From the NCBI RefSeq assembly GCF_019697375.1, contig NZ_JAHCDI010000004.1:5195324-5259323 (forward strand): a DNA stretch of 64,000 nt. Direction: 5' to 3'. The position numbers and the translations under genes were made by a program. The stretch comes from Micromonospora tarapacensis. GTDB lineage: Bacteria > Actinomycetota > Actinomycetes > Mycobacteriales > Micromonosporaceae. Below, piece by piece: positions 13,628 to 35,409 of the stretch (position 1 is the stretch's first letter; each line of letters opens with the position of its first letter). The notes beneath the pieces are model-generated. The model did no database searches. It saw only the letters and a list, made by a program, of their open reading frames with translations, and had not been told where the DNA came from.

Positions 13628-13643
13628 GTTACTGCTGGGTAAC
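13628..13643. promoter_or_regulatory. Operator-like palindrome GTTACTGCTGGGTAAC upstream of the EtfD-like gene
   Basis: Half sites GTTAC and GTAAC are separated by 6 bp. The same arrangement, GTTACTGATCGGTAAC, lies upstream of the acyl-CoA dehydrogenase at 26071-26086. It overlaps a possible -35 (TTACTG 13629-13634, 17 bp, TAGGCT 13652-13657). Its size and symmetry suit a TetR-type repressor. Confidence 0.6.
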
Positions 13644-13664
13644 CTTGCGCGTAGGCTGCACTGC

Positions 13665-13687
13665 ATGACCGAGCGGAGCGAGGTCAT
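13665..13687. repeat. Inverted repeat ATGACC-N11-GGTCAT, REP-like
   Basis: The arms ATGACC (13665-13670) and GGTCAT (13682-13687) flank GAGCGGAGCGA. The element lies in the leader of the EtfD-like gene. Similar GAGCGGAGCGAG stretches are, to my recollection, frequent between genes in Micromonosporaceae, so this may be one copy of a dispersed repeat; no second copy was seen in this window. Confidence 0.45.
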
Positions 13688-13788: not shown

Positions 13789-15984
13789 ATGGGCAGCGTC
13801 CAGATCGTCACCACGATCCTCGCGGCCGCCATCACCGCCGTGGCGGTGTGGCTTGCGGTACGCGCGGTCATCCGGATGGCGGCCGTGATCCGGCTGGGTC
13901 GGCCCGACCCGACCCGGTTCGGCGACAAGGGCAGCCGTACGACGACCATGCTCGCGGAGACGGCCGGGCACACCCGGATGCTCCGCTGGAGCGTGGTGGG
14001 GGCGGCGCACTGGTTCGTGATGGTCGGCTTCATCGTGCTGTCGCTGCTGGTGCTGGAGGCGTACTTCGAGGTGGTCTCGCCGACCGGCGGGCTGCCGCTG
14101 ATCGGCGGCTGGGCGCTCTACGGACTGGTCACCGAGGCGATCGGCATCCTCGGCGTGGTCGGCATCGTGGTGCTCATCGCGATCCGGTTGGCCAACCGGC
14201 CGAACCGGGCCGGTCGCCGCTCACGGTTCACCGGCTCCACGATGTGGCAGGGCTACTTCGTCGAGGCGGTCGTCCTCGCCGTGCTGATCATGGGCTTCCT
14301 GATCCGCGGCTTCAAGGTGGCCACCGACCACTTCGAGTATCCGACCTGGGCCACGCCGCTGAGCCACGCGGTCGGCTCGGTGCTGCCGGGCTGGGAGTCC
14401 GGCGTCAGCGTCGCCGCCCTCATCAAGATCTCGATCTCGATGGCCTGGGTCATCGTGATCGCGCTGAACGTCACGATGGGTGTCGCGTGGCACCGCTTCC
14501 TCGCCTTCCCCAACATCTTCTTCAAGCGGGAGCCGGGGGCGGCCGGCTCCGGTCTCGGCGCGCTGCGGCCGATGATGAGCGACGGCAAGCCGCTCGACTT
14601 CGAGGAGGCCGACCCGGATTCCGATCAGTTCGGCGTGGCGCACGTCGAGCAGTTCACCTGGAAGGGCCTGCTGGATTTCAGCACCTGCACCGAGTGTGGC
14701 CGCTGCCAGTCGCAGTGCCCGGCGTGGAACACCGGCAAGCCGCTGTCGCCGAAGCTGCTGGTGCTCAGCCTGCGGGATCACGCCTACGCAAAGGCGCCCT
14801 ACCTGCTGGCCGGTGGTGGCAAGGACCTCACCGGCGAGGAGAAGGCGACCGCCGCGCAGCTTGCCCACGTCGACGTGCTGGCGCTCGCCGAGGCGGAGAA
14901 GCCGCTGATCGGCGACGCCGAGGCCGGTGGGGTGATCGACCCCGACGTGCTCTGGTCGTGCACCACCTGCGGTGCCTGCGTGGAGCAGTGCCCGGTGGAC
15001 ATCGAGCACGTCGACCACATCGTCGACATGCGTCGCTACCAGGTGCTCATCGAGTCGAACTTCCCCTCCGAGGCCGGCGTGATGCTGCGCAACCTGGAGA
15101 ACAAGGGCAACCCGTGGGGGGCCCCGCAGAACACCCGCGAGGACTGGACCAAGGGCCTCGACTTCGAGGTCCCGCGTGTCGGCGAGGTCGAGGACTTCGA
15201 GTACCTCTTCTGGGTGGGTTGCGCCGGGGCGTTCGAGGACCGGGCCAAGAAGACCACCCGGGCCGTCGCCACGCTGCTGCACGAGGCGGGCGTGTCGTTC
15301 GCCATCCTGGGCGAGGGCGAGACCTGCTCGGGCGACCCGGCGCGGCGCATCGGGAACGAGTTCGTCTTCCAGATGCTCGCCCAGCAGAACGTCGAGACCC
15401 TCAACGAGGCGTTCGAGGGCCGCGAGCGGTCCAAGCGCAAGATCGTCGCGACCTGCCCGCACTGCTTCAACACCCTGGGCAACGAGTACGGCCAGCTCGG
15501 CGGCGAGTTCGAGGTGGTGCACCACACCCAGTTGCTGGCGCACCTGGTCGCCACCGGCAGGCTCACCCCGGTGCAGCCGGTCGACGGCGGGGTGACGTAC
15601 CACGACCCGTGCTATCTCGGCCGGCACAACCGGGTCTTCACCCCGCCGCGCGAGGTGCTCGGCAGCGCCATCCAGGGCGAGCTGACCGAGATGCCCCGCA
15701 ACAGCGAGCGTTCCTTCTGCTGCGGCGCCGGTGGCGCGCGGATGTGGATGGAGGAGCGGATCGGCAAGCGGATCAACGTGGACCGGGTCGAGGAGGCCAT
15801 GTCCACCGGGGCGAGAACGGTCGCCGTCGGTTGCCCGTTCTGCTCCACGATGCTCAACGACGGCGTGAACGGTAAGGACGCCGGCGAGCAGGTCGAGGTG
15901 GTCGATGTGGCGAGCGTCCTGCTCCGCTCCGTCCGGCCCGAACAGGCCACGGGCACCGAGGAGGCCGCGTCGGTGGCCGGCTGA
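13789..15984 (+). CDS. EtfD-like membrane Fe-S oxidoreductase (heterodisulfide-reductase family)
   Basis: The 731-residue protein resembles mycobacterial Rv0338c (EtfD) and Bacillus FadF, which pass electrons from acyl-CoA dehydrogenases via ETF to menaquinone. The N-terminal half has about five membrane helices. Two ferredoxin-type 4Fe-4S sites follow: CTECGRCQSQCP (~303-314) and CTTCGACVEQCP (~394-405). Two C-terminal cysteine-rich CCG regions come last (WVGCAGAF ... CSGDPARR ... CPHCFNTLG; DPCYLGRHN ... CCGAGGARMW). ATG at 13789 has GGGAGG seven bases upstream. It stands alone; no etfAB genes are nearby. The upstream palindrome shared with the acyl-CoA dehydrogenase supports a fatty-acid-oxidation role. 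Confidence 0.85.
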   Translation: MGSVQIVTTILAAAITAVAVWLAVRAVIRMAAVIRLGRPDPTRFGDKGSRTTTMLAETAGHTRMLRWSVVGAAHWFVMVGFIVLSLLVLEAYFEVVSPTGGLPLIGGWALYGLVTEAIGILGVVGIVVLIAIRLANRPNRAGRRSRFTGSTMWQGYFVEAVVLAVLIMGFLIRGFKVATDHFEYPTWATPLSHAVGSVLPGWESGVSVAALIKISISMAWVIVIALNVTMGVAWHRFLAFPNIFFKREPGAAGSGLGALRPMMSDGKPLDFEEADPDSDQFGVAHVEQFTWKGLLDFSTCTECGRCQSQCPAWNTGKPLSPKLLVLSLRDHAYAKAPYLLAGGGKDLTGEEKATAAQLAHVDVLALAEAEKPLIGDAEAGGVIDPDVLWSCTTCGACVEQCPVDIEHVDHIVDMRRYQVLIESNFPSEAGVMLRNLENKGNPWGAPQNTREDWTKGLDFEVPRVGEVEDFEYLFWVGCAGAFEDRAKKTTRAVATLLHEAGVSFAILGEGETCSGDPARRIGNEFVFQMLAQQNVETLNEAFEGRERSKRKIVATCPHCFNTLGNEYGQLGGEFEVVHHTQLLAHLVATGRLTPVQPVDGGVTYHDPCYLGRHNRVFTPPREVLGSAIQGELTEMPRNSERSFCCGAGGARMWMEERIGKRINVDRVEEAMSTGARTVAVGCPFCSTMLNDGVNGKDAGEQVEVVDVASVLLRSVRPEQATGTEEAASVAG

Positions 15985-26008: not shown

Positions 26009-26024
26009 TGTGATCGCTGTCACT
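26009..26024 (+). promoter_or_regulatory. CRP-type site TGTGATCGCTGTCACT upstream of the acyl-CoA dehydrogenase
   Basis: It matches TGTGA-N6-TCACA in 9 of 10 fixed positions. Its centre is ~53 bp before the expected transcription start. An ACCTG-N5-CAGGT repeat lies just upstream (25993-26007). Confidence 0.6.
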
Positions 26025-26057
26025 TCCCGGGGTGGCTTGTCGGTGTCTACCCGCGAG

Positions 26058-26086
26058 TAATACAGTCAGGGTTACTGATCGGTAAC
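26058..26086 (+). promoter_or_regulatory. -10 TAATAC and downstream operator GTTACTGATCGGTAAC
   Basis: TAATAC (26058-26063) is followed by the palindrome at 26071-26086, over the likely transcription start. The palindrome matches the one before the EtfD-like gene (13628-13643) in both arms and the adjoining TG. Repressor binding here would block initiation. Confidence 0.65.
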
Positions 26087-26112: not shown

Positions 26113-27969
26113 ATGACCCACTACAAGAGCAACCTTCGGGACCTCGAATTCAACCTGTTCGAGGTGTTCGGGGCGGACCGGGCGTTCGGCCAGGAGCCGT
26201 ACTCCGACCTCGACATCGACACCGCGCGGAGCTTCCTCGCCGAGGTCGACCGGCTGGCTCGGGGTGACCTGGCCACCAGCTACCAGGACAGCGATCGCAA
26301 CCCACCGGTCTTCGACCCGACCACGCACACCGCGCCGCTGCCGGAGTCGTTCAAGAAGTCGTACCGGGCGTTCATGGAGTCCGAGTTCTGGCGCCTGGAC
26401 CTGCCGCCGGAACTGGACGGCACCAACGCCCCCCGGGCGCTGTGGTGGGCGCTCGCCGAGCTGGTGCTCGGCTCGAACGCCCCGGTCTGGATGTACGCCT
26501 CCGGCCCGTCCTTCGCGCACGTGCTGCACGTCGAGGGCACCGAGCGGCAGAAGAAGTGGGCCAAGCTCTTCATCGATCGGCAGTGGGGCTCGACGATGGT
26601 GCTGACCGAGCCGGACGCCGGCTCGGACGTCGGCGCCGGGCGTACCCGCGCGATCCCGCAGCCGGACGGCTCCTGGCACATCGAGGGTGTCAAGCGCTTC
26701 ATCACCTCGGGTGAGCACGACCTGACCGACAACATCGTCCACTACGTGCTGGCCCGGCCGGTCGGCGTGGCGGGCGTGGGCGGCCCGGGCACAAAGGGCC
26801 TGTCGCTCTTCGTCGTGCCGAAGTACCACTTCGACGAGAGCACCGGCGAGTTGGGCGAGCGCAACGGCGTCTTCGCCACCAACGTCGAGCACAAGATGGG
26901 GCTGAAGGTCTCCAACACCTGCGAGGTGACCTTCGGCGAGCACGGCGTACCGGCCAGGGGCTGGCTGCTCGGCGAGAAGCACGACGGCATCCGGCAGATG
27001 TTCATGATCATCGAGTATGCCCGGATGATGGTCGGCACCAAGGCGATCGCCACCCTCTCCACCGGTTACCTGAACGCCCTGGAGTACGCCAGGAACCGGG
27101 CGCAGGGCGCCGACCTGACCCAGATGACGGACAAGAGCGCCCCCCGGGTGACCATCACCGCGCACCCGGACGTGCGCCGCTCGCTGCTGTTGCAGAAGTC
27201 GTACGCCGAGGGCCTGCGGGCCCTGGTCCTCTACACCGCCTCCTGGCAGGACAAGATCGCCATCGCCGAGGCGGCCGGCGACGAGAAGGCCACCAGGCTG
27301 GCCAAGCGGGTCAACGACCTGCTCCTCCCGCTGGTCAAGGGGGTCGGCTCCGAGCGGGCCTACGAGCTGCTCGGGCACGAGTCGCTACAGACCTTCGGCG
27401 GCTCCGGCTTCCTCCAGGACTACCCGCTGGAGCAGTACGTCCGGGACGCCAAGATCGACACCCTGTACGAGGGCACCACGGCGATCCAGAGCCTCGACCT
27501 GATCTTCCGGAAGATCGTCCGGGACAACGGCAAGGCGCTGATGGCGGTGGCCGGTGAGATCCAGGAGTTCATCGCCACCGAGGCGGGCAACGGTCAGCTC
27601 AAGGAGGAGCGTCAGGCGCTCGGCAAGGCGCTCGCCGAGATCCAGAGCATTCTCGGCGTGATGACCGGGTGGCTGGGCGAGGTGGGCAGCGGTGACACCC
27701 GGGCCGTCTACAAGGTCGGGCTGGGCAGCCGGCGGTTCCTGCTGGCGCTCGGCGACCTGGTGGTCGGCTGGCTGTTGCAGAGGCAGGCCGACGTGGCGCT
27801 GAAGGCGCTGGCCGGCGAGGTGTCGGCCGCCGACCAGGCGTTCTACACCGGGAAGGTGGCCGCGGCCCGGTTCTTCGCCCGCGAGGTGCTGCCCCGCATC
27901 GGCGCCGACCGGCGGATCATCGAGGGCGCCGACCTGGACATCATGGACCTCCCGGAGGAGGCGTTCTGA
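26113..27969 (+). CDS. Acyl-CoA dehydrogenase (FadE family, long form)
   Basis: This flavoenzyme makes the first double bond in fatty-acid beta-oxidation. The 618-residue length and C-terminal extension (~from 480) match the long FadE5-like group. Visible motifs are [15 protein letters not shown] (FAD/substrate region), [30 protein letters not shown] and [38 protein letters not shown], with Glu of YEGT as the likely base. The ATG has a weak GGAAG upstream. It stands alone behind a CRP-type site and a palindrome shared with the EtfD-like gene, its probable electron-acceptor route. Confidence 0.92.
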
Positions 27970-35351: not shown

Positions 35352-35409
35352 AGGTTACGGCAGCGTAGGTTACCTTCGGGTAGTGTAACTGGTCACGCCG
35401 TCCGACCAG
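35352..35409. promoter_or_regulatory. Repeat-rich control region between the PAQR and pxp genes
   Basis: On the minus strand TAACCT (35357 to 35352) is the -10 for the PAQR gene. TAGGTTAC occurs twice (35351-35358, 35366-35373) and an inverted repeat CTGGTC-N9-GACCAG lies at 35389-35409. GTTACCTTCGGGTAGT (35369-35384) partly resembles the operator shared by the FadE and EtfD-like genes. Confidence 0.4.

Follow-up and report, generated by a model that had tools for sequence, protein, structure and literature searches.

Introduction

The described system closest to the one presented here is FdmR (Rv0238; studied in M. marinum), a TetR repressor of mycobacterial fatty-acid degradation, which shares the TetR family with our candidate regulator. 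In the passages available, long-chain acyl-CoA is given as the signal to which FdmR, a repressor of fatty-acid degradation genes, responds (PMC12403877), and fadE5 as one of the genes that it regulates (PMC9262360). The mycobacterial EtfD/ETF/FadE5 path involves the same three enzymes whose genes have operators in our genome. According to the excerpts available, M. smegmatis vesicles supplied with ETF and FadE5 require EtfD for their butyryl-CoA-driven acidification (PMC13083937), and etfD is needed for beta-oxidation (PMC8593149); TetR-based transcriptional control is not among the topics that these excerpts cover. One paper contains both FdmR and EtfD, with FdmR appearing, in the part available, just in the reference list (PMC11086914). 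Among the literature matches listed, the excerpts contain neither FdmR control of etfD or etfBA nor such a regulon in Micromonospora, and etfD may be a known FdmR target.

Other TetR-type regulators are also worth comparing. FadR of Bacillus is an acyl-CoA-responsive regulator of fatty-acid degradation, which is the same logic as that proposed here. FasR of M. tuberculosis senses long acyl-CoA via a tunnel (PMC7382501, in the part available) and is described as an activator in lipid biosynthesis, unlike the repressor that we propose. AccR of Streptomyces avermitilis, likewise a TetR protein, is described in excerpts as a short-chain acyl-CoA regulator that acts on acyl-CoA metabolism genes through a 16-nt palindrome (PMC10933834). 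Its operator, GTTAA-N6-TTAAC, is not the motif present in our sequence, where the arms read GTTAC and GTAAC instead of GTTAA and TTAAC.

In this work, we analysed a stretch of 64,000 nucleotides of Micromonospora tarapacensis (hereafter the window) together with the rest of the genome and related genomes. Two palindromes of the window, GTTACTGCTGGGTAAC and GTTACTGATCGGTAAC, are very probably bound by a single repressor that senses fat. This repressor appears to switch on the fat-burning pathway as a whole, from the oxidising enzyme to the electron handover to the respiratory chain. Both the sequence and the order of the genes suggest that the regulator is of the FdmR type found in mycobacteria; what would be new is the Micromonospora member and a regulon that here seems to include the ETF/EtfD electron path.

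Results

The same palindrome upstream of etfD and fadE5

The initial annotation had reported one palindrome before two distant genes, and both sites were verified. GTTACTGCTGGGTAAC (13628-13643) is intergenic and lies 145 bases 5' of its gene, and GTTACTGATCGGTAAC (26071-26086), also intergenic, lies 26 bases 5' of its own. With up to one mismatch allowed, the window holds no match to GTTACN6GTAAC besides these two, against a mean of 0.26 in dinucleotide-shuffled windows, 3 of 100 of which held at least two matches. Throughout the genome (6,901,429 bases in 4 contigs), the exact motif occurs five times and its reversed control never, and the counts with one mismatch are 51 and 19, so that the repetition is above chance. 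The accompanying claim that most of the 6-bp centre differs was mistaken, since TGCTGG and TGATCG differ at just two of six positions, and a weaker second copy, CTACCCGCGAGTAA (26047-26060), 25 bp 5' of the 26071 site (start to start), had been missed. Covariation of the centre was considered as added support and dropped, the paired centre positions having no consistent excess over expectation. Two other exact copies, each at position 1501 of its locus, precede a bile-acid-symporter-family gene (L001) and a gene for a ricin-lectin-domain protein with a sub-threshold GDSL match (L002), neither with a clear link to fatty-acid oxidation.

The gene following the first site (13789-15984, forward strand) encodes a product of 731 amino acids with 4Fe-4S and CCG domains (Pfam), which we take as an EtfD/FadF-type membrane Fe-S oxidoreductase; etfD matches at E≤1e-60 were obtained in 59 of the 61 genomes searched. 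Window and genome scans, as well as conservation among congeners, mark GTTACTGCTGGGTAAC as the predicted etfD operator, and a possible -10 element, TAGGCT (13652-13657, forward strand), stands a short way 3' of it. Conservation was followed in 30 loci per gene, own genome included, drawn from the 37 genomes of the genus among these 61. One operator-class site is present 5' of etfD in 29/30 loci, and TAGGCT occurs at most 25 bp 3' of the site in all 30. The etfD leader also holds an inverted repeat, ATGACC...GGTCAT (13665-13687), which is present in many relatives and missing from a subset (e.g. L094, L098, L100).

The exception, L087, has GTTACTGCTCGTTAAC, one arm of which reads TTAAC as in the AccR operator. 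The sites might be those of a short-chain acyl-CoA regulator resembling AccR, whose palindrome has equal length and spacing and similar arms, and which represses fadE and echA genes too (PMC10933834, in the excerpts available). However, the arms read YTAC and GTAR in the promoter stretches, L087 excepted, and we consider this explanation very unlikely, with AccR compared by its printed motif alone.

Based on phmmer matches in the PDB, the gene after the 26071 site (26113-27969, forward strand; 618 aa) is fadE5, for a FadE5-type acyl-CoA dehydrogenase. It scored 854 bits against 6kpt and 847 bits against 6kse, the latter named FadE5, while the next family reached 336; we take these matches to be mostly M. 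smegmatis entries. Inspection of the sequence suggests a -35 element, TTGTCG (26037-26042), separated by an 18-bp spacer from a possible -10 element, TACAGT (26061-26066), both on the forward strand. The predicted upstream operator, CTACCCGCGAGTAA, would thus lie between the presumed -35 and -10, and the -10 between both operators, the downstream one being GTTACTGATCGGTAAC, predicted from the window and genome scans and from conservation. All 30 congeneric loci have two sites 24-26 bp apart; GTTACTGATCGGTAAC is unchanged in 29, with the last base altered in the other, and TACAGT occurs between the sites in 23/30 and TAGAGT in 7/30. Further 5' of the promoter lies another palindrome, TGTGATCGCTGTCACT (26009-26024), which we call Crp-like on the basis of what we take to be the Crp/GlxR consensus. 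The pattern TGTGTRAT-N4-6-CAC is found in 30/30 congeneric fadE5 upstream stretches, and the palindrome suggests a further, Crp-type control of this gene.

A candidate TetR regulator with putative operators of its own

The initial annotation had proposed to look for an autoregulated TetR gene. A TetR gene with two such sites lies 28 kb past the downstream end of the window (G000:C4:5287300-5287956), divergent from an SCP2-domain/acyl-CoA dehydrogenase gene pair. An exact GTTACN6GTAAC copy lies between the TetR gene and this pair, at C4:5287277, and a second operator at the TetR promoter, TTACGCATGAGTAG, starts 16 bp beyond it. Both PF00440 and PF21943 score above cut-off in the protein, and its AlphaFold model is all-helical, with a mean pLDDT of 81. 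The best fold match of the model is 3f1b, a TetR-like regulator of Rhodococcus, and the closest folds include FasR with C20-CoA (TM-score 0.69-0.73, normalised by query). Stearoyl-CoA-bound FadR of Bacillus is among the first 50 matches, with an identity of 15-18% in the structural alignments. Membership of the FasR family itself was rejected, as the protein scores 95.1 bits against a cut-off of 330 for the NCBIfam equivalog NF053731.

For a broader view, a profile built from six orthologues was used to scan named genomes, and the best 80 of 582 confirmed stretches were taken (Micromonospora, Salinispora, Plantactinospora, Asanoa, Dactylosporangium, Lentzea, Saccharothrix and others). YTACN6GTAR was searched from 200 bases upstream to 40 bases inside the matched start. 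At least one site was present in 79 of these best 80 loci and two in 76, spaced by 16 bp in 76/76; L314, L321 and L329 have a single site, and L292 has none. These upstream stretches hold 155 sites in 19,200 bases, compared with 77 in the remaining 1,145,928 bases, and the corresponding counts for the reversed control are 0 and 3. All 30 congeneric TetR promoters carry two sites, and in a genome of another family (G050, L145) the pair is 15 bp apart. Such paired sites suggest dimers bound side by side.

The comparison with FdmR rests on profile and gene order. A TetR profile gave one clear match, at 228 bits, in a mycobacterium-like genome (G043), where the next best reached 119. Some 7 kb separate this TetR gene from fadE5; the genes follow one another as LpqI-like, TetR, HtdX-like, fabG4, fadA2, fadE5, and the stretch from TetR to FadE5 has what we take to be the order of Rv0238 to Rv0244c in M. 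tuberculosis. In our own genome too, fabG4/fadA2 are located about 6-7 kb from the TetR gene. The Micromonospora gene differs from FdmR in being divergent from the SCP2/acyl-CoA dehydrogenase pair and in having two operators of its own.

A probable conserved regulon of mostly fatty-acid and acyl-CoA genes

A relaxed pattern, YTACBSNNSVGTAR, built from the sites already seen at that stage, matched 31 times in our genome and 21 times when reversed, a high background that weighs against the FdmR-type reading; the same counts in congeners were 30 and 20 (G015), 25 and 6 (G012), and 39 and 7 (G019). A gene start lies within 300 bp downstream of 27/31 relaxed sites and of 4/21 control sites (Fisher p = 1.2e-6), the starts coming from a crude codon-usage gene caller which puts some genes in the wrong place and, in L006, overlooked where TetR and SCP2 begin. 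According to a hand tally over all own-genome rows plus the TetR and fadE5 pairs, 21 of the 31 sites precede genes whose orthologues in G019, in G015 or in both are likewise preceded by a site; 37 of the 39 G019 sites and 28 of the 30 G015 sites were examined.

Most of the conserved predicted targets are enzymes of fatty-acid or acyl-CoA metabolism, several of them given a lipid role on account of their protein family. Besides etfD, fadE5 (two sites) and TetR/SCP2-FadE (two sites), they comprise fadA-fadB, fabG4/fadA2, a second thiolase, a methylmalonyl-CoA-mutase-family enzyme, a further acyl-CoA dehydrogenase, a DUF4442 thioesterase-like protein, an AMP-binding ligase, a TPP enzyme behind an enoyl-CoA-hydratase-like gene, a short-chain dehydrogenase, an aldehyde dehydrogenase, two alpha/beta hydrolases, a PlsC-like acyltransferase and a GMC oxidoreductase that is broken in our genome. 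Two further members have no evident lipid link, namely an ABC transporter and a reading frame of 66 aa that matches no family. The Pfam families of the targets include thiolases, acyl-CoA dehydrogenases, AMP-binding ligase, 3-hydroxyacyl-CoA dehydrogenase/enoyl-CoA hydratase, acyltransferase and alpha/beta hydrolases. Of the GMC oxidoreductase only a 3' remnant in two frames is left (L137:6627-7215; G000:C3:628626), with the operator still standing a few bases 5' of it, and a longer form exists in G019.

The other genes that the initial annotation had proposed to look for have sites as well: the palindrome occurs at fadA-fadB, at an acyl-CoA ligase candidate (the AMP-binding ligase) and, one position off the relaxed pattern, at etfBA, which was located separately via PF01012. 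Conservation in relatives, also to be checked according to that annotation, holds for the etfD site and the fadE5 pair at the frequencies given above. The outcome that it had named as refuting, either many copies before unrelated genes or inside coding regions or a lack of conservation of either site in relatives, was not found, although 2 of the 5 exact and 10 of the 31 relaxed sites stand without a conserved or evident link. Ten sites unconserved in G019/G015 (L110, L117, L118, L119, L121, L125, L126, L127, L133 and L002) were dropped from the regulon. The exclusion of L117 may be wrong, a fabG-type gene resembling the one there having a site in G055 (L398).

One site precedes etfB in 30/30 congeneric loci. 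It overlaps the stop codon of the preceding gene, and its arms are constant while the intervening codons vary; its conservation could be partly a coding constraint. Such an overlap, together with the sites lying on or beside presumed promoter elements, would also fit the view that these stretches are kept as promoter elements or as some other kind of conserved DNA and that no dedicated repressor exists. Nevertheless, the placement relative to the presumed -10 varies (upstream at etfD, on both sides at fadE5), the palindromic arms are constant around a variable centre, and the tandem spacing of 16 bp is invariant in the two-site TetR loci among the best 80 of 582. A set of sites without a repressor thus seems to us barely credible.

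A near copy, GTTACTAGTCGGTAAT (L134:1455), precedes a GDSL-lipase-family gene, and a G019 site (L211) stands before a similar-looking gene; extracellular lipases may be part of the regulon.

Discussion

We assign a probability of roughly 0.84 to the reading that these sites are operators of one FdmR-type TetR repressor, released by acyl-CoA, whose targets include etfD, etfBA, fadE5 and its own gene. The single TetR-type regulator over both palindromes that had been proposed initially is supported by the sites at TetR, fadA-fadB, etfBA and the ligase and by their conservation. We infer that the TetR protein binds the operators, that it represses and that its ligand is an acyl-CoA. Release by acyl-CoA is likely because FdmR is described as acyl-CoA-responsive and because the model resembles 3f1b, FasR with C20-CoA and FadR with stearoyl-CoA.

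Under this mechanism, a TetR dimer would occupy YTACNNNNNNGTAR sites lying across or beside the promoters of etfD, etfBA and fadE5. The same dimer would bind its own promoter, shared with the divergent SCP2/acyl-CoA dehydrogenase pair, and those of about a dozen further, mostly lipid-related transcription units. At etfD the repressor would sit beside the presumed -10, and at fadE5 two dimers would flank it. When long-chain acyl-CoA accumulates, it would fill the C-terminal pocket of the repressor and the dimer would leave the DNA. Release would then induce the dehydrogenase together with the electron-transfer flavoprotein and with the membrane oxidoreductase by which this flavoprotein is drained. 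If one acyl-CoA-responsive repressor does govern FadE5, ETF and EtfD, the supply of electrons would be matched to their drain by transcription. Moreover, the definition of the operator might help to annotate fatty-acid catabolic genes across Micromonosporaceae and parts of the order.

In the fetched loci of other families of the order, a site was present before fadE5 in 8/8, between fabG4 and fadA2 in 5/5, before etfD in 6/7 and before the TetR gene in 4/5. The etfD locus of G048 (L154) has no operator-class site. In the mycobacterium-like G043, whose FadE5 scores 1170 bits against 6kse, a full and a looser site flank a TATAGT in the fadE5 promoter, and etfD has two sites 25 bp apart. The FdmR-like TetR gene of this genome (L331) has no site of its own, and one is found about 85 bp upstream of a FasR-like TetR gene (L340). 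Three genomes, G055, G057 and G042, gave no FdmR-like TetR at E≤1e-20, a threshold below which a diverged gene may fall; their best matches to the TetR profile are FasR-like or desaturase-linked TetRs. These assemblies are 95-100% complete, and two of the G055 sites lie at contig ends. The fadE5 sites are kept in all three genomes, etfD and fadA together with the TPP-enzyme gene keep theirs in G055 and G057, and etfB and the mutase gene do so in G055. Sites and reversed controls number 19 and 5 in G055, 11 and 3 in G057, and 6 and 8 in G042, which has no excess. It is possible, if on balance doubtful, that the FdmR-type TetR is gone in several families and that a different regulator reads the same sites within an order-wide beta-oxidation regulon of dehydrogenase, ETF and EtfD.

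The same observations bear on the possibility that another TetR, e.g. a FasR-type paralogue, is the main reader of the operators, with the FdmR-like TetR merely a target or co-user. This would account for the operators that remain in G055, G057 and G042 beside FasR-like and desaturase-linked TetRs, and for G043, where the site precedes the FasR-like and not the FdmR-like gene; the G043 site slightly lowered our confidence in the FdmR-type reading and slightly raised that in the paralogue. On the other hand, the C. glutamicum FasR motif is unlike this operator, as far as the excerpts of PMC10933834 go, and eight FasR-like or similar loci in other genomes (L332-L339) are without an operator-class site. 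In addition, the FdmR-like gene retains its pair of sites in 76 of the 80 named loci (best 80 of 582). We thus hold a paralogue to be an unlikely main reader and retain the FdmR-type repressor.

Finally, a second, related operator class possibly exists. Tandem TACG-N4-CGTA motifs, 15 bp apart, stand in other genera before genes that by inspection are desaturase-like and lie beside a different TetR (L342-L345), and congeners have them before a gene resembling acyl-ACP desaturases (L205, L241); the latter two sites were excluded from the regulon because they resemble this class, tied to another TetR. In the window, two YTACN6GTAR sites, TTACGGCAGCGTAG and TTACCTTCGGGTAG, also 15 bp apart (35355-35383), sit between an HlyIII-family gene and a carboxyltransferase-domain gene, and only the first of them fits the TACG-N4-CGTA class.
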